Assembly (NCBI GenBank): GCA_016185125.1
Contig: JACPOC010000001.1
Span: 1 to 41,989, forward strand
Direction of reading: 5' to 3'
Length of the DNA stretch: 41,989 bases
Source of the DNA: Bacteroidota bacterium
GTDB lineage: Bacteria > Bacteroidota > Bacteroidia > B-17B0 > Aurantibacillaceae
Part shown: positions 8,490 to 29,089 of the stretch, one piece after another
Layout of the letters: each line of letters starts with the position of its first letter
Position numbering within the stretch: the stretch's first letter is position 1
Program-made: the position numbers and the translations under genes
The notes under the pieces: generated by a model
What the model saw: the letters and a program-made list of their open reading frames with translations, nothing else
What the model was told of the DNA's origin: nothing
Databases searched by the model: none

Positions 8490-9305
8490 ATGAAATCAAC
8501 CGAAGCCGATTCGTATTACAACGATCTGGAAAAAATGAGTATTACTGAATTATTAAGTAATATGAATAAAGAAGATAAAACTGTTCCTTTATGTATAGAA
8601 GCGGCTTTACCTCAAATTGAAAAAGCGGTAGAAGCTATTGTACAAAAAATGAATAAGGGCGGCAGATTGTTTTATTTAGGAGCCGGCACCAGCGGAAGAT
8701 TAGGAATTGTAGATGCCAGCGAATGCCCGCCAACCTACGGCATTGAGCAAGGTAAAGTAATTGGCATAATTGCCGGCGGAGATGAGGCCATTAGAAAAGC
8801 CGTAGAATTTGCCGAAGATGATGTAAACCAAGGCTGGGCCGATTTGCAAAAGCATACTGTTAACTCAAATGATTTTGTAATTGGAATTGCCGCTTCAGGT
8901 TCAACTCCCTATGTAATTGGGGCGCTTGATAATTGTAATAAAAATGGCATACCCACGGGCTGCATTGTTTGCAACGCTAAAAGCGCCGTTGCGGGTATGG
9001 CTCAATATCCGGTGGAAGTTATTGTAGGCCCTGAGTTTGTAACAGGCTCTACACGCATGAAAAGCGGCACGGCTCAAAAACTTGTTCTTAATATGATTTC
9101 TACATCTGTAATGATAAAATTAGGAAAAGTGAGGGGCAATAAAATGGTAGACATGCAGCTAAGTAATAATAAACTGGTGGATAGGGGAACTCAAATGCTG
9201 ATGAAGAATACCGGAATTAGCAATTATGAAAAGGCCAAAGAATTGCTCTTAAAATACGGCAGCGTTAGAAAAGCATACGAGGCTTATAAAGAAATTCAAC
9301 AATAA
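8490..9305 (+). CDS. murQ: N-acetylmuramic acid 6-phosphate etherase
   Basis: The 271-aa SIS-domain protein carries the MurQ signature 'YLGAGTSGRLGIVDASECPP', the 'IAGGDEAIRKAVEFAEDD' region with its catalytic acidic residues, 'GIAASGSTPYVIGAL' and 'GSTRMKSGTAQKLVLNM'. MurQ cleaves the lactyl ether of MurNAc-6-phosphate to GlcNAc-6-phosphate and D-lactate, in the cytoplasm, during recycling of cell-wall sugars. It is slightly shorter than E. coli MurQ (298 aa), ending in the C-terminal UBA-like helix 'LLLKYGSVRKAYEAYKEI'. The usual partners (anmK, nagZ, amgK) are not adjacent; it stands alone between a terminator and a repeat array. Confidence 0.93.
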   Translation: MKSTEADSYYNDLEKMSITELLSNMNKEDKTVPLCIEAALPQIEKAVEAIVQKMNKGGRLFYLGAGTSGRLGIVDASECPPTYGIEQGKVIGIIAGGDEAIRKAVEFAEDDVNQGWADLQKHTVNSNDFVIGIAASGSTPYVIGALDNCNKNGIPTGCIVCNAKSAVAGMAQYPVEVIVGPEFVTGSTRMKSGTAQKLVLNMISTSVMIKLGKVRGNKMVDMQLSNNKLVDRGTQMLMKNTGISNYEKAKELLLKYGSVRKAYEAYKEIQQ

Positions 9306-9313
9306 AAAATAAC

Positions 9314-9542
9314 TTCTTACATTAAATAAAAGGGTTGTTACACTCAATAAATCATCTCTTACAACGCCATAACGACAGTTTACAATGAATAAATAGCTTC
9401 TTACACTGCCATAATTGCGTCTTACATTGAATAAATTGCATCTTACAATAAATAAAGGGCTTCTTACAATGAATAAATAGCTTCTTACACTGCCATAATT
9501 GCATCTTACATTGAATAAATTGCATCTTACAACATTAGTAAT
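9314..9542. repeat. 21-bp tandem repeat (minisatellite), about 10.9 units
   Basis: Ten consecutive units of exactly 21 bp run from 9314 to 9523, followed by a partial eleventh. Each has the core (T/G)TTACA at the same place, and most follow with TGAATAAAT or TGCCATAAT. Unit boundaries fall at 9314, 9335, 9356, 9377, 9398, 9419, 9440, 9461, 9482 and 9503. Units 4, 5 and 6 are nearly the same as units 8, 9 and 10, giving an 84-bp higher-order period, which points to duplication of a four-unit block. The array fills most of the 354-bp gap between murQ and the SirB1-like gene. No promoter or terminator was seen here. Confidence 0.92.
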
Positions 9543-9659: not shown

Positions 9660-10553
9660 TCAAAGTTGCTTTTCAAGATCTTTTAACTCCTGAACTTTTT
9701 CAAGGTAACCAAGCTTTTCATAAGAATAAATTAGGTTGTGAAGGCAGCGTTTAATAATTTCTACATTGCTGCAAGGAAGATAATATTTAGCCTCCGCTTC
9801 AAGATTTAATTGTTTCAAAAATGAATCAATATCTTTTTGATTAAAAATTAATCCTTTGCTAAACGGATTAATGTAAAACAAAATATTATTTGAAAGCGTT
9901 TTATTGTTTACGTCAATAAGATTAGCGTTTTCATTTACATAAGCCAAAACAAAATGCTGCGGTAAATTAATACCATAAACAGGTATATTCAGCTCCTTGC
10001 AAATGAGTGCGTACACAACGCTTAACATTAAAGGGTTTCCTTTTTTACTTTCAAGAACATTGTTAATGAACGAATTTTGCGGCGCATGATAGTTGGTTAT
10101 ATTTCCGCTAAACTGATGCACTTCAAATAAAATATGATTAACAATTTTTACTTTTTCAAGGGCTGTCAAATCCTCATGCAATTCAAGCCAAACGTCCTGC
10201 TTAATTTGAGCCAGTTGTTTTCTTATTTTATTTTCATCAAAATCAGGGTATTGATATCTTGCCAGTAAAATAGTACCTTTTAACAGATCATCTTGTTCGT
10301 CTTTAGCCCATGCCTTTAAGGCGCGCTGCAAGGTTTCAAATTGAATGGTATGAATAATGGTTTCAATACGCTTTTGCATGATGGCGTCAAAACTGTTTTC
10401 CCAAGCGGTTTCAAGATGCGGAATAGCCGGCGGACCAAGAATTACAAAACGGTCTCTCACCTGAGAATAAATATGCTCATCCGGATCATCCAACAAAGTA
10501 ATCAGGGCTATTACTTCTTTAAGGCTCATTTCTTTTTTTCGCTTTGGTGCCAT
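9660..10553 (-). CDS. SirB1-like transglutaminase-fold protein
   Basis: The 297-aa protein matches the SirB1 N-terminal (Transglut_core2) family: an all-helical lead (residues 1-130, with HEAT-like 'LGPPAIPHLETAWENS') followed by the core 'KGNPLMLSVVYALICKELNIPVYGINLPQHFVLAY' spread over about residues 170-205. The His in 'LPQHFVL' is the conserved family histidine, while the position of the transglutaminase cysteine ('LMLSVVY') is a serine, so protease or transglutaminase chemistry is doubtful. The C-terminal part 'CLHNLIYSYEKLGYLEKVQEL' looks like a TPR helix pair. No signal peptide is visible, so it is probably cytoplasmic. The biological role of this family is not established. Confidence 0.75.
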   Translation of the reverse strand: MAPKRKKEMSLKEVIALITLLDDPDEHIYSQVRDRFVILGPPAIPHLETAWENSFDAIMQKRIETIIHTIQFETLQRALKAWAKDEQDDLLKGTILLARYQYPDFDENKIRKQLAQIKQDVWLELHEDLTALEKVKIVNHILFEVHQFSGNITNYHAPQNSFINNVLESKKGNPLMLSVVYALICKELNIPVYGINLPQHFVLAYVNENANLIDVNNKTLSNNILFYINPFSKGLIFNQKDIDSFLKQLNLEAEAKYYLPCSNVEIIKRCLHNLIYSYEKLGYLEKVQELKDLEKQL

Positions 10554-25379: not shown

Positions 25380-26231
25380 ATGAAAAACCTCCTTCTACCC
25401 CTTTGCCTTCTTTCTTTATTCGGTTTCTCGCAAAAAGAATTTGATAAATACGGCCCTTTAGGCAGCGAAGTTTACACCGATGTTAAAACCGCGCTTTCCA
25501 TTGAAAAAAATGTGTACAAACTTGATCTCAGCTTTAAAAAACTGGAGCCAAAGCAATACGATAAGCTCTATAAATTATCCGATCTTCAGGCGCTTAAATT
25601 AAGCTCTAACGAAGTAAGCGCTTATCCTAAAAACTTTGAAGCGCTTTTTAACCTTGTTTACTTTGCTTCTTACAATAATAAATTCACTTCTTTTCCGCCT
25701 AACTTAAAACCTTTTTTTACGCTTCAGTATATTGAATTGCAGCATACAAAAATTGACAGTATCCCCGCGCAGATTGCCTGCTTAACTAAACTTCAAACAT
25801 TAAAGTTTGGTAATACCGATGATACACTTAAACTTCCCACAACATTGCGCTTCTTAAAAAAATTAGCGGATGTAGCTATTGAAAACTGCGTGATGGATAG
25901 CTTCCCAAAAGAATTGTTTAAGCTTCCTATGCTAAACTATTTAAACCTTAGCAACACCAACACCCATTATCTAACAAAGCATTTTGAACGCTTGCCAAAT
26001 CTTGAGATCCTTATCATTGAAAATAACCCTATAAAGAAGATTCCTTTTGAAATTTACAAGGCCCAAAAACTTCGCTTTATATCTTTAAGAGGAAACAGTA
26101 TTGAGAAGTTGCCCGACAGCATATCGCAATTACAAAATTTAACGCTGCTTGATTTAAGAGGAAACCCTGTAAGTGCAGAAGAGATTGAGAAGCTGAAAAT
26201 TTTGCTTCCGGGATGCGAAATTAAATTTTAA
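25380..26231 (+). CDS. Secreted leucine-rich-repeat protein
   Basis: The 283-aa protein has a signal peptide (MKNLLLPLCLLSLFGFSQ). From about residue 45 to the end it is made of LRRs of roughly 23 residues, e.g. 'LSDLQALKLSSNEVSAYPKN', 'LTKLQTLKFGNTDDTLKLP', 'LPNLEILIIENNPIKKIP', 'AQKLRFISLRGNSIEKLP' and 'LQNLTLLDLRGNPVS'. The repeats resemble the ribonuclease-inhibitor/SDS22 type with IP/LP ends. No T9SS tail, lipobox or enzymatic domain is visible, so it probably acts in the periplasm or outside as a binding protein. The end overlaps the convergent M23 gene by 11 bp. Confidence 0.75.
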   Translation: MKNLLLPLCLLSLFGFSQKEFDKYGPLGSEVYTDVKTALSIEKNVYKLDLSFKKLEPKQYDKLYKLSDLQALKLSSNEVSAYPKNFEALFNLVYFASYNNKFTSFPPNLKPFFTLQYIELQHTKIDSIPAQIACLTKLQTLKFGNTDDTLKLPTTLRFLKKLADVAIENCVMDSFPKELFKLPMLNYLNLSNTNTHYLTKHFERLPNLEILIIENNPIKKIPFEIYKAQKLRFISLRGNSIEKLPDSISQLQNLTLLDLRGNPVSAEEIEKLKILLPGCEIKF

Positions 26232-27207
26232 GCTTTTGCCCCGGCCGTAATTTTGAAGTAAGTTTTAAACCATTTTTTTTACAAAGCGCTTTAACTGTTG
26301 TATGGTTTTTGCGGGCAATGGTGCCCAAACTATCTCCCGAACGAATTTTATAAATTCCTTTAAAACTTTTTCCGCCTTTTACATACTTGCCCGATTTACG
26401 CTCGGCACGCGTTAAACCAATATCGCGTTTGTGGCGAGAGTGTAAGGCACGCAAATCGTACTTATTCTCAACATCGCTTTTTCTTAAAGTAAAAGTATTT
26501 GTTTTTAAAGTCCCTTTGCTGTAATCTAAAAAATCTTCGGTATCTAAGGCCTGGCCAAGGTAACGCATTTCAAAATGAAGATGGCTTCCTGATGAACGCC
26601 CCGTGTTTCCGCCCAAACCCAAAGCCCCGCCGGCAGTAACTGTTTGCCCAGGCTCTACCATTATTTTTGATAAGTGGCCGTACACAGTTTCCAAACCGTT
26701 ATTATGGCGCACTATTACGCAATTGCCGTAACCGCTGCAATATTTTGCCATGCGCACCATTCCATCAAAAGCATTTACTACCGAATCCCCGGTTTCCAAA
26801 TCTATATCCGTACCATAATGCGGACGATATTTCCTCCAGCCAAACTCACTTGTAATGCCGCCCCTAAAAGGCATAGAAAATCCGCAATCGGCTGTTTGTG
26901 TTAGTGTTATAATTACGCTATCTCCCTTAAAGGCTTCGTAAAAATGGTATGGGTGAGCCATGGAAGTATCCCAACTGCTGTAAAGATCGTGACTTGGAAA
27001 AAGTATTTGCACCGTATCAATGCTTTCATCGCCCGCTTCGGCAAGCATTTCGCTTTGAATTACCTGCTTGGTAGTATCATCGCGCTTTATTTTAGCTTTT
27101 TTATCGTCATCCGGCTTTTTGTTACGATCGTCGGGCGAAAAAGTACCGGCTGCCGTGCTAAAAAAGCCTAAACAAGAGAGGGATAATATGCAGATAAAGT
27201 TCTTCAC
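26221..27207 (-). CDS. M23 peptidoglycan endopeptidase with C-terminal LysM
   Basis: The 328-aa protein (counted from the GTG at 27207, MKNFICILSLSCLGFF) has a signal peptide, an Asp/Lys-rich linker, an M23 domain (about 108-230) and a C-terminal LysM (about 283-328, 'YKIRSGDSLGTIARKNHTT', 'KLRPGQKLKI'). M23 zinc ligands and catalytic residues are present: H130 and D134 in 'PHYGTDID', H178 in 'VYGHLS', H209-x-H211 in 'SHLHFEM'. The expected activity is cleavage of peptide cross-links in the cell wall, with LysM anchoring to glycan strands. Start: TTG at 27225 lies in the predicted promoter, while GTG at 27207 gives a normal signal peptide. Confidence 0.85.
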   Translation of the reverse strand: MKNFICILSLSCLGFFSTAAGTFSPDDRNKKPDDDKKAKIKRDDTTKQVIQSEMLAEAGDESIDTVQILFPSHDLYSSWDTSMAHPYHFYEAFKGDSVIITLTQTADCGFSMPFRGGITSEFGWRKYRPHYGTDIDLETGDSVVNAFDGMVRMAKYCSGYGNCVIVRHNNGLETVYGHLSKIMVEPGQTVTAGGALGLGGNTGRSSGSHLHFEMRYLGQALDTEDFLDYSKGTLKTNTFTLRKSDVENKYDLRALHSRHKRDIGLTRAERKSGKYVKGGKSFKGIYKIRSGDSLGTIARKNHTTVKALCKKNGLKLTSKLRPGQKLKI

Positions 27208-27222
27208 TATTTTTGGATGTTG

Positions 27223-27252
27223 CAAAGATTGTCTTTTTTACTAAAAATGCAA
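27223..27252 (-). promoter_or_regulatory. Likely promoter of the M23 gene
   Basis: On the minus strand TTG (27250-27252), a 19-nt spacer and AATCTTTG (27223-27230), one base off TAnnTTTG. The start would be about 10 nt upstream of the GTG start codon. Confidence 0.45.
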
Positions 27253-27569
27253 TAGCTGAAGCCTTATTTTAGGTTTAAAGTTATTAACAATTGGCTTTTT
27301 TGGGCTTAAATTTAAGTGATAGAACGCAGATGACACAGATTTATGCCCATAAATTATAGTTGAAGCCATGCAAGAATACGGATTAACCCCCAAGAATGGC
27401 ATTAATAGGCACTAATTAGCACGAATTAACACAAAGAATTTGTTTACTTAGTGCAAATGAGTGTGTGAATAAAAAGCGATTATAAATTATTTGCAAATAA
27501 AATAATTTAACTTAACTTAGCATTATGGTAAAAATGCCAAAAGCCTTGCGCCTTAGGTTAAAAATATTT
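27253..27569. other. Non-coding, repeat-derived stretch
   Basis: No convincing gene is present. The pieces 'GAACGCAGATGACACAGATTT' (27319-27339, shown here as GAACGCAGATG then ACACAGATTT) and CACTAATTAGCACGAATTAA (around 27411) resemble intergenic dispersed repeats seen in many Bacteroidota genomes. An ATG at 27525 opens a 54-codon basic frame that runs through the ACTTAT array; it has no ribosome-binding or homology support. Confidence 0.45.
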
Positions 27570-27772
27570 GTAAGTGGCTTAAGTAGCCGCGTACTTGCCT
27601 TACTTAGGTGCAAACCAAGCGCACTTATAGCCATAAGTATTAAACTTATATATATACATAGCATACTTATATATATATATATATAAGTACGGCACTTATT
27701 TATATAAGTAAGGCACTTATACAACTATGTTTAATACTTATACAACTATGTTTAATACTTATACAACTATGT
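27570..27772. repeat. Helically phased ACTTAT/ATAAGT array with 26-bp palindrome and 21-bp direct repeats
   Basis: Ten hexamers ACTTAT or ATAAGT start at 27623, 27633, 27644, 27665, 27683, 27694, 27704, 27715, 27736 and 27757. Steps are 10, 11, 21, 18, 11, 10, 11, 21 and 21 bp, nearly all multiples of the 10.5-bp helical turn. Degenerate forms (AAGT 27572, AAGT 27581, ACTTG 27593, ACTTA 27602) extend the pattern to the left. Two hexamer pairs form inverted repeats with a 4-bp spacer (27623-27638, 27694-27709). 27664-27689 is a perfect AT palindrome. 27715-27772 holds 2.8 direct copies of a 21-bp unit, ACTTATACAACT followed by ATGTTTAAT. The array lies 104 bp upstream of the 140-aa gene. Confidence 0.85.
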
Positions 27773-27875
27773 ATGGCACATATACACGCGCTTACCATTA
27801 AAACTAACAAAAGGCCGGCATTGGTACAAGAATTAACCCTGTTAAACCATACATTAACCCTATAAAACCAACAAC

Positions 27876-28298
27876 ATGAGCCGTAAAACCGTAAAAGTAA
27901 CCGTACCCATTAATAAACCCGATGAGTTTAGTAAATTAATAAAAACAATTGTAGCGCAACATACCGAAGAGGGGAGCAAAAGCCCCTTAAAAAGCCACAG
28001 AAGCGTAAACATGAGTACATTTAAAACCTTATCAATTAAGGCAGAGGGTTTACGATCTAAAGCCGAACAGTTGCGCCACAGAAGCGAAAAACTAATGGAA
28101 CAATCGCGCGTTATATACGGCAACGCCAAAGGCCAAACCATAAGCACACCTTATACGCTTTATAACATGGTAGATGATATTAAAGATACTTTACTATTAG
28201 CCTACAAAGGCAACGAAGAAAGCCTGGGCGAGTGGGGCTTTGATGTAAGCGTAGGATCGGCGAAGAGCCCTGGTGCTAAGAGTAAGCCGGGGAAGTAG
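27876..28298 (+). CDS. Conserved hypothetical protein, 140 aa
   Basis: No function is known to me, but the layout is one I have met in other Bacteroidota genomes: an N-terminal 'SRKTVKVTVPINKPDEFSKLI', a central helical, coiled-coil-like stretch of about residues 50-90 ('LRSKAEQLRHRSEKLMEQS') and a conserved C-terminal end 'NEESLGEWGFDVSVGSAKSP' with a Lys/Pro-rich tail. It is basic, has no signal peptide or membrane helix, and could bind nucleic acid or form a structural oligomer; both are guesses. It sits alone, between the ACTTAT array (upstream) and an antitoxin-like remnant. ATG at 27876 is the first start of the frame. Confidence 0.65.
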   Translation: MSRKTVKVTVPINKPDEFSKLIKTIVAQHTEEGSKSPLKSHRSVNMSTFKTLSIKAEGLRSKAEQLRHRSEKLMEQSRVIYGNAKGQTISTPYTLYNMVDDIKDTLLLAYKGNEESLGEWGFDVSVGSAKSPGAKSKPGK

Positions 28299-28301
28299 GT
28301 T

Positions 28302-28318
28302 AAGCTTTGAGCTTTTTT
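28302..28318 (+). terminator. Weak terminator after the 140-aa gene
   Basis: Short stem AAGCT / AGCTT with loop TTG and a run of six T, only 4 bp past the stop codon. Confidence 0.35.
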
Positions 28319-28340
28319 AAAAAAAAGATTATCTGTGGTA

Positions 28341-28493
28341 ATGACTAAGACGGAAATAAAGAGCGAAATTCAGAAAGTTCTTGATAACGTTCCTGAAAAT
28401 GTACTTCAAGATATTTTAGATTTATTAAAAGACTTGCAAAGCCAACTTTGTACTTTCCGCCAGCAAAGGAGAATTCCGTTACAAGGAAATTAG
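28341..28493 (+). pseudogene. Antitoxin-like small ORF, probably truncated by frameshift
   Basis: A 50-codon frame starts at ATG 28341 and begins 'MTKTEIKSEIQKVLDNVPEN' then 'VLQDILDLLKDLQ', a helical pattern common at the N-terminus of short DUF2281-type or addiction-module antitoxins. After 'KDLQ' the sequence turns into an atypical Cys/Arg/Gln-rich tail, as expected from a frameshift. Another frame downstream continues with 'VLSASKGEFRYKEIRKWLLE' to a stop near 28533, possibly a second remnant. No toxin gene is adjacent. It may also be an intact short ORF of unknown role. Confidence 0.4.
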
Positions 28494-28567
28494 AAAATGG
28501 TTACTCGAGCATGTTATAAAAACGAACGAGTAATAACTGTGTGCGCATAAGAAAGCAGATTTTACCC

Positions 28568-29089
28568 CTAAAACTCCAGCACCATCTTTTTATCAGGGTT
28601 AGTCAGCTTTGAGCTTTGCGTCATCTCTTTTACCTGGCAATGCACAATGTTTATCTGCGATTTAATATAATCATACAATAAAGTATTCTCTATCTCCATT
28701 TTTTTAGGCAAGGGGCAGTTGTTTACTTCCACATACAACCAAATAGCTTCCGCTTCATGTTCAAAACCAAGCACTGTAATTTCAACAGCCTTTAAATTTA
28801 CTTTCATCTTTAAATGATTGCGCACATAATCCTGTAAAATCTTATTCAACGCTTCTTTATCCTTTCCGTTTATAAGATCTGCTTTTAAATTATAAAGTTT
28901 AGATATGGCTTCTTCAATATCATTGGTAAAAAGTTTAACCGTGCCTTCCAAACTTTTTTGTTTGCTGTTGTATTTCAAATCAGTTATTCCTAAATAAAAC
29001 GGGTGCTTAAGCGTAAAAGAAAACAACATGGATGCCGCAAGGCAAAGCAGCGTAAAATTATTAATAAGATTATAAAATCTGTTTTTCAA
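28568..29089 (-). CDS. DUF6702 family protein
   Basis: The 173-aa protein has an N-terminal hydrophobic segment (about residues 10-26) and the DUF6702 hallmark right after it: 'KHPFYLGITDLKYNSKQKSLEGTVKLFTNDIEEAI' over residues 28-62. The remainder ('LKMKVNLKAVEITVLGFEHEAEAIWLYVEV') fits the family. It is expected to be exported or anchored in the envelope; its role is unknown. Genes of this family often neighbour an M1 peptidase, as here (divergent). The start is TTG at 29089 because no ATG precedes the signal segment; TATCTTTG (29095-29102, minus strand) ends 5 nt before it, so the transcript might be leaderless. Confidence 0.75.
   Translation of the reverse strand: MKNRFYNLINNFTLLCLAASMLFSFTLKHPFYLGITDLKYNSKQKSLEGTVKLFTNDIEEAISKLYNLKADLINGKDKEALNKILQDYVRNHLKMKVNLKAVEITVLGFEHEAEAIWLYVEVNNCPLPKKMEIENTLLYDYIKSQINIVHCQVKEMTQSSKLTNPDKKMVLEF

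Follow-up and report, generated by a model that had tools for sequence, protein, structure and literature searches.

The window, a stretch of 41,989 nucleotides that forms an entire contig (C49) of a 3.34-Mb genome (G000), carries an array of tandem 21-bp units next to a gene for a small basic protein. The array would be the cis part of a Bacteroidota array–gene unit, in which such units lie beside a gene of family F1 or F2. Across the loci surveyed, the period was conserved, each motif was confined to a single array or to a small set within the same genome, and array–gene units were moved or gained as blocks. That the unit is mobile and its array a same-face, multi-site DNA-binding platform with a putative binder is a reading to which we give slightly less than an even chance.

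Structure of the array in the window

By lag-21 self-match, the array extended over 27556..27793, with a core at 27623-27772 and a right edge placed by eye. The anatomy reported in the first-pass annotation was reproduced. Ten exact ACTTAT/ATAAGT hexamers were located at 27623, 27633, 27644, 27665, 27683, 27694, 27704, 27715, 27736, and 27757, in steps of 10, 11, 21, 18, 11, 10, 11, 21, and 21 bp, and the helical phasing claimed for them was correct. Inverted hexamer pairs with a 4-bp spacer could be read off the sequence at 27623-27638 and 27694-27709, while computation recovered both the perfect 26-bp AT palindrome (27664-27689) and the closing direct 21-bp units (ACTTATACAACTATGTTTAAT), a 58-bp run of 2.76 copies on the forward strand at 27715-27772. 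The degenerate sites proposed on the left were present as well: 21-bp windows with a lag-21 identity of ≥0.5 began at 27556 and, on the other side, reached 27905, beyond the clear units. Sequence and unit analysis distinguished two kinds of dyad at 27694-27720 on the forward strand, ACTTAT-TTAT-ATAAGT and ATAAGT-AAGGC-ACTTAT, with spacers of 4 and 5 bp (6+4+6+5 = 21). Dyad symmetry of the array was significant (p 0.024), and its hairpin/dyad z of 3.2 was the highest among 55 arrays. A core of AAGGC, ATGAC, ACGGC, or ATGGC between inverted arms was seen by eye in the arrays of the window (27694-27780), G042, and G301; as a hairpin rule, this arrangement held in just 6 of the 55 arrays.

Chance phasing in AT-rich DNA, which the AT-rich composition of the intergenic gap might favor, has a negligible probability. 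In a shuffle comparison of the kind proposed in the first-pass annotation, the best lag-21 identity over 120 bp was 0.75, whereas 5,000 shuffles that preserved dinucleotides peaked at 0.475, and none of them reached the count of ten hexamers. The same period also occurred in G+C-rich arrays elsewhere (G187 and G217), and the shuffles, the 64-region survey, and the held-out F2 set described below refute this explanation.

The hexamer itself had 27 further occurrences in the window, but no further ACTTAT pairs on one strand at a distance of 20-22 bp turned up in the contig. Over the whole genome, such pairs gave 13 matches (reversed control: 4 forward and 1 reverse): six belonged to the window array, four clustered in a stretch of contig C22, and three were single.

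The array lies in a segment (27310..28567, boundaries approximate and set by eye) between a DUF6702 gene (28568-29089, reverse strand) and an M23/LysM peptidase gene (26221-27225, reverse strand). Repeats of another kind, of roughly 10 bp, were noted at 27327-27440 and in the gap after the DUF6702 gene at locus L222 (CTGTGTAATC... and CACGAATTAACAC...); these represent the same intergenic region in two genomes. A 50-aa open reading frame at 28341-28493, 3' of the F1 gene, looks like the start of an antitoxin gene.

The adjacent protein and family F1

The gene beside the array (27876..28298, forward strand) encodes P0001, a 140-aa protein of family F1 that was characterized by homolog searches and structure prediction. 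P0001 is small and basic (pI 9.75), and its suggested link to the array was supported. The predicted elements were E4-9, H15-35, H46-69, H71-81, H95-109, H114-120, and E123-128, and an AlphaFold2 model built from five sequences (pLDDT 82, pTM 0.74) accordingly showed an N-terminal strand, long helices, and a C-terminal strand. Comparison with solved PDB structures gave no convincing match (best Foldseek E 2.6; best VIA-align Z 5.4 over 67 residues). P0001 matched no Pfam or NCBIfam family, its PHROG match was insignificant (E 0.23), and PADLOC-DB contained no family for P0001, P0002, or P0003.

These searches bear on the proposal that the array is an iteron-type replication origin or a plasmid/phage partition site. 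Iterons typically combine two-turn spacing with private motifs, and the array has both. On the other hand, P0001 has no Rep-like or Par domain in Pfam or NCBIfam, neither P0001 nor two F2 proteins had a plasmid match, one F2 protein had no phage match, scans of viral contigs yielded no relative, and a single genome holds several arrays. The iteron-type origin listed in the first-pass annotation was thus not borne out, and we consider an origin or partition role extremely improbable.

F1 homologs occurred in 4 of 60 genomes searched, counting the window's own, which also has a paralog in contig C23; none of the 36 same-genus genomes in that search matched P0001. A profile search of the class found matches in 15 of 395 genomes, including a weak one at another location in the same-genus G017, and a draw of 395 genomes from the phylum returned only the window's own. 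Four F1 proteins of 253-413 aa (L056, L047, L034, and L035) seemingly contain two copies of the domain.

The first-pass annotation had proposed checking whether the phased hexamer always lies upstream of homologs of P0001, and took its absence at every other homolog as a refutation. The answer was split between geometry and sequence: phased ACTTAT was found at none of nine other F1 loci, and most F1 genes adjoined 21-bp-period arrays with other motifs. Such an array lay upstream of 26 of the 35 F1 genes and downstream of four more; at most of the nine loci, repeat finding and autocorrelation showed such arrays, each with another motif (e.g., GCACGTTTACCTAAACGCAAG, AACAAGACGTTATGTTTTAAA, and GGCATACACAGATGATTTATA). 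Conservation thus applies to the spacing of two helical turns and to the association with the gene, and does not extend to the hexamer.

Conservation of the 21-bp period

The survey covered 64 upstream regions, 35 of F1 and 29 of F2 genes, with G089:C17 and G117:C86 dropped (upstream <250 bp); gene starts were set by script, and that of G088:C49 is probably in the wrong frame. Periodicity was significant against 2-mer shuffles in 52 regions (26 for each family). The peak lay close to a multiple of 21 in 50 of these; 7-bp microsatellites produced it in two or three of the 50. The mean local match in the 52 regions was 0.67, 0.68, 0.62, and 0.63 at lags 21, 42, 63, and 84, respectively, vs 0.35-0.43 at all other lags from 5 to 99. 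With a fixed threshold of 0.58 at the same four lags, 24 of 35 F1 and 18 of 29 F2 regions passed, vs a base rate of 11 of 307 genes in the sampled part of the window's own genome; three of those 11 were F1 or F2 genes, and several shared one array with a neighbor. Among the 12 nonsignificant loci, G094:C103, G094:C26, G301:C165, and G192:C90 carried the array downstream; the rest were G094:C6, G252:C65, G244:C36, G017:C35, JAUXOK27, G176:C22, G222:C21, and G081:C124, and several of the 12 were weak or partial family matches. Over the 61 genes with both flanks available, the array was upstream in 43 and downstream in 5. The rule was observed in at least 12 genera, as judged from genus labels.

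Arrays reached 25 units and 533 bp. Among 281 unit steps, 260 were of 21 bp, 18 of 20, two of 22, and one of 18, with none of 24; a step of 20 is therefore tolerated, and one of 18 occurred once. These steps bear on the idea that the arrays encode a peptide with a seven-residue repeat (21 bp = 7 codons). Open frames did cross several arrays, e.g., 131 aa in L106, and were somewhat more numerous than expected (forward, 47 vs 39.2; reverse, 43 vs 40.8). Against this, chance often leaves a 21-bp repeat open in some frame, the 20-bp steps (18/281) break the frame, the best lags of some arrays were 41, 61, and 62, and codon-position skew exceeded the 95% null in only 2 of 52 cases. A coding role is very improbable, and coding heptads were not supported as a general explanation, given steps that are not multiples of three and the absence of a third-position excess.

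Two further candidates were rejected. The W/S harmonic at 10.5 bp within the unit was not enriched (0.094 vs 0.1 for a uniform distribution), which speaks against a curvature or wrapping code, and k-mer tallies (5-7 bases) of 55 arrays, which a universal motif should have raised, never exceeded the column-permutation maximum. This 55-array set omits the near-duplicates G099:C43 and G000:C43 and the microsatellites G026:C31, G192:C173, and G218:C198, and extends to arrays as weak as a local match of 0.5; seven of its members were added manually. Dyad-symmetric units (p<0.05) were found in 14 of 41 arrays, vs approximately 2 expected, with one near-duplicate pair among the 14. This excess fits the dimeric-protein platform proposed in the first-pass annotation, but the symmetry is not universal, being nonsignificant in most arrays.

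Family F2 and held-out genes

The C22 stretch with ACTTAT pairs (~C22:188870-189300) proved to be an array upstream of a gene of a second family, F2. Its product, P0002, is a 200-aa protein whose C-terminus bears a weak resemblance to FN3 (Pfam fn3_2 E 0.05, below the cut-off). F2 proteins (~205 aa) occurred in 28 of 198 class genomes, with up to 10 matches per genome, and most of the 30 loci fetched had the same kind of array upstream. An hhalign comparison of F1 with F2 (probability 18, E 0.0013 over 108 columns) suggests that the families may be distantly related. The F2 profile also picks up generic FN3 domains (181 of 395 phylum genomes), so from that search only full-length matches were taken; two FN3-only matches had no array.

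Twenty previously unexamined F2 genes were scored with a threshold of 0.55 fixed in the script. Seventeen passed, whereas each of the three control lag sets gave one of 20, as did the downstream side. The failures were L259 (0.52, best lag 21), L264 (0.54, best lag 42), and L261 (0.48, none). Three genes had a best lag outside the set; two of them passed, with best lags of 61 and 60, i.e., about three 20-bp units. Four further full-length members scored 0.91 (G308), 0.75 (G570), 0.63 (G627), and 0.51 (G406, weak); G570 and G627, which lie outside the class, obey the rule, as does G308, and the four best lags of the 0.51 member were multiples of 21 throughout. Downstream of the F2 genes L260, L261, and L270, strong periodic stretches were seen at lags of 66, 77, and 91.

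Insertion and block movement

We compared the window with 21 same-genus loci that have a DUF6702 neighbor, 15 of which keep the M23/LysM gene within 1.5 kb. The distance between the two genes was 90-135 bp in seven relatives (the value for G024 is unreliable) and 1,343 bp in G000, where the gap contains the array and P0001. P0001 was absent from the fifteen genomes that keep both genes together, and none of seven scorable gaps contained a 21-bp array (best 0.46); the six loci without M23 scored 0.47-0.59, with the highest value in G023. The gaps in G001, G011, and G013 measured 776-961 bp, and the gap holding P0001 may be a general insertion spot.

Elsewhere, G301:C246 and G099:C43, from two species of one genus, shared a 1,203-bp block at 96.6% identity (L033 841-2007; L043 805-2007, reverse strand) that comprised the leader, terminator, array, gene, and ~90 bp of 3' DNA. 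The block ended sharply, with dissimilar flanks in the 3.4-kb loci. Contigs C23 and C43 of G000 had 722 bp in common at 92%; in C43 the gene is truncated. Reading of the unit ends revealed neither an integrase nor a target duplication nor a terminal repeat.

Motif sharing and orphan arrays

One motif may recur within a genome in further arrays, with or without an F1 or F2 gene. In G042, motif A (ACAGYTCTTAGT-N5-ACTNACAGYTC, ≤3 mismatches) gave 73 matches at nine places and none in the reversed control. Three of the nine, located where contigs end, may be fragments of a single repeat; two are at F1 genes, three upstream of paralogous secreted-protein genes, and the others include one upstream of a PadR-like gene and one between convergent genes, the functions being taken from a reading of the translations. 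The secreted-protein paralogs (L135, L140, and L150) share ~1.4 kb at 80-84%, including the upstream array with the F1 motif. Motif B of the same genome occurred at C84 (F1), C68, C73, and the end of C15 (20 matches vs 0 in the control). The motif of C23 and C43 in G000 was restricted to those two arrays.

The lag-21 scan also revealed a second array with another motif in the window (about 9312..9540), between convergent genes at 8490-9305 (+) and 9660-10553 (-) and with no F1 or F2 gene beside it; its motif was found in one other array, G000:C30:28366-28518. A G000 sample of 440,506 bases including the window contained 16 periodic stretches, ten with a 20-21-bp period. Five of the ten had no adjoining F1 or F2 gene (the window at 9312, L098, L105, L106, and L107), and one adjoined a decayed F2 gene (L103 8413). 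Profile searches detected no F1 or F2 relicts beside the orphan arrays searched in G000 and G042. Intergenic repeats of 14 bp (7 bp) of the AAAAACTCATCACT type were also observed in G000 (L107 8830-9009 and L096 15518-15664). In 400 kb sampled from other genomes, one weak array was found in G134 and one strong array in G042; samples of G144 and G187 had no stretch with a 21-bp period, nor was any array found in 120 kb of G001 and G030, which are of the same genus and have no F1 match.

Such orphan arrays favor the main rival to the platform reading, a selfish dispersed repeat (REP/BIME- or minisatellite-like) with a putative spreading mechanism. The array would expand and spread alone or with help in trans, its 21-bp length would come from the repeat-making mechanism, and the F1 or F2 gene would be cargo or a tolerant neighbor. 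The recurrence of one motif over nine places in G042, three of them at contig ends and two at F1 genes, the presence of entire units at differing sites, and the greater divergence of the arrays than of the adjoining DNA between G042 copies point the same way. However, Y1_Tnp (RAYT/IS200 type) had no match in G000, which is 99.9% complete, the 55-array k-mer tallies revealed no common REP core, and a neutral repeat does not account for arrays at 17 of 20 held-out F2 genes when the base rate is low. PF01797 matches numbered 0 in G000, 3 in G042, 2 in G301, 2 in G001, and 0 in G030, and RAYT-driven spread is unsupported as a general explanation. We regard a selfish repeat as a serious possibility, though an unlikely one.

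Leader sequences and RNA folding

A few F1 loci show both a promoter-like site and a terminator, located 5' of the array; in these, the array would be part of the transcript. The sites, matched by a pattern modelled on the C23 site after that site was seen, numbered 7 (two overlapping) upstream of the array at five F1 loci vs 0.98 expected, and none fell within or after the array at the same loci. Terminators upstream of the array were found by script at three loci and by eye at G000:C23/C43; G000:C23/C43 and G301:C246/G099:C43 also had leader ORFs containing repeated Glu-Arg or His-Thr pairs. The order of promoter-like site, leader ORF, terminator, and array was seen at L061 (3406-4288) and at L033 and L043 (~-696 to +93 around the F1 gene), where dinucleotide repeats encode the (Glu-Arg)n or (His-Thr)n ends of the short leader ORFs; this layout looks like attenuation with a slippage-prone leader.

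These features would suit an RNA-level element, in which transcribed leader units are recognized or folded as RNA and control translation or termination of F1 or F2, as would the strong arms of the window array and its hairpin z, the best of 55. Against it, hairpins exceeded column permutations in just 6 of 55 arrays, three other promoter patterns were unenriched over all loci, and four arrays lie downstream of the gene. Fold z relative to column permutations was -1.25 on the sense and -1.90 on the antisense strand, the sense strand being lower in 20 of 48 arrays; energy lowered on both strands, and more on the antisense, reads as dyads. With no sense bias and so few hairpins, sense-strand folding was not supported as a general explanation, and an RNA-level element is improbable.

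A model of the array–gene unit

In the platform reading, the array would act as duplex DNA that lines up numerous copies of a binding site along one helix face for a protein that binds cooperatively and in many cases has two-fold symmetry. The best candidate for this binder would be the protein encoded next to the array, or a partner co-diversifying with it. The unit would control itself, and same-motif arrays elsewhere would extend its control to a few other loci. Three considerations lead us to favor a cognate or co-diversifying binder: the period calls for something that reads the helix, the most similar motifs belong to the closest F1 pairs, and arrays of one genome also share motifs. Motif similarity was 0.60 for the two closest F1 pairs (0.93-0.94 identity) and averaged 0.40 (sd 0.05) for pairs below 0.5 identity. 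Several observations tell against the platform: among three F1 pairs at 76-85% identity (0.76-0.85), motifs were dissimilar in two (0.45 and 0.48) and similar in one (0.62); no DNA-binding fold was recognized in P0001; the four F1 genes with a downstream array only are odd for an operator; and the orphan arrays have no F1 or F2 gene at all. The 12 nonsignificant regions, the three held-out genes below the threshold, the nonsignificant dyads of most arrays, the presumed transcription of the array at a few F1 loci, and the unenriched W/S harmonic count against it as well.

A stricter version, which we find doubtful, is that the mobile unit consists of a small protein and a self-addressed array read like a lock by its key, only by that protein or its partner. 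Selection would hold the two-turn geometry, the recognition sequence would drift freely and be homogenized within the array, and each unit would have a private address, with same-address arrays elsewhere becoming targets. If true, the system would parallel, in bacteria, satellite DNA and its cognate binding protein.

A conserved period without a conserved sequence, beside two families that lack Pfam and NCBIfam entries in at least 12 genera, is a directly testable rule. If a protein reads the arrays, they provide natural sets of DNA–protein pairs with distinct sequences and the same geometry, useful for learning how specificity changes. If there is no reader, they reveal a process generating repeats exactly two helical turns long, which would bear on the origin of bacterial minisatellites.

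Comparison with known systems

Plasmid iteron arrays are direct repeats with two-turn spacing, a private motif, and an adjacent gene, and the arrays described here share all four features. They differ in occurring several per genome, in adjoining two protein families of unassigned function, and in that P0001 has no Rep domain and no plasmid match; no replication initiator was recognized beside the window array (no Pfam or NCBIfam family, PHROG E 0.23).

Phased operator arrays of dimeric repressors have same-face spacing and dyad half-sites. Our arrays resemble them in both respects and in lying mostly upstream of a gene; dyad sites on one helix face were present in the window array, and dyads in 14 of 41 arrays overall. 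Unlike such operators, they comprise up to 25 units and 533 bp, differ in motif between homologs, and in some cases lie downstream.

In REPtrons, REP/BIME repeats accompany a RAYT (TnpA-REP) gene (PMC8266576). As in the REPtrons outlined there, the repeats adjoin a gene, have spread through the genome, and are particular to a lineage in sequence. By contrast with that outline, no Y1 transposase match was found in G000, the period is a head-to-tail 21 bp, the neighbor is a small protein of another kind, and the units are often non-palindromic. The REP palindrome carries a conserved tetranucleotide of the GTAG type; here, dyads were present in 14 of 41 arrays, and sharing of 5-7-base k-mers among the 55 arrays did not exceed that in permutations.

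Intergenic direct repeats of the heptamer TAACTGA are described for Beggiatoaceae and a few Bacteroidetes (PMC4679880). Both are intergenic tandem repeats, found in some Bacteroidetes and placed partly toward a start codon. The TAACTGA repeats have a period of 7 and a fixed sequence, whereas in our arrays lag 7 averaged 0.42 and lag 21 averaged 0.67, and the sequence is free; a 7-bp subunit was found in two stretches (G218:C198 and G192:C173).

None of the titles retrieved in searches of open-access literature described such arrays, and the known kinds considered either disagreed with one or more of the defining features examined or were not demonstrated to fit. Overall, the comparison points to an array–gene unit of an undescribed type, whose mechanism may be an extreme form of that of phased operator or iteron arrays.
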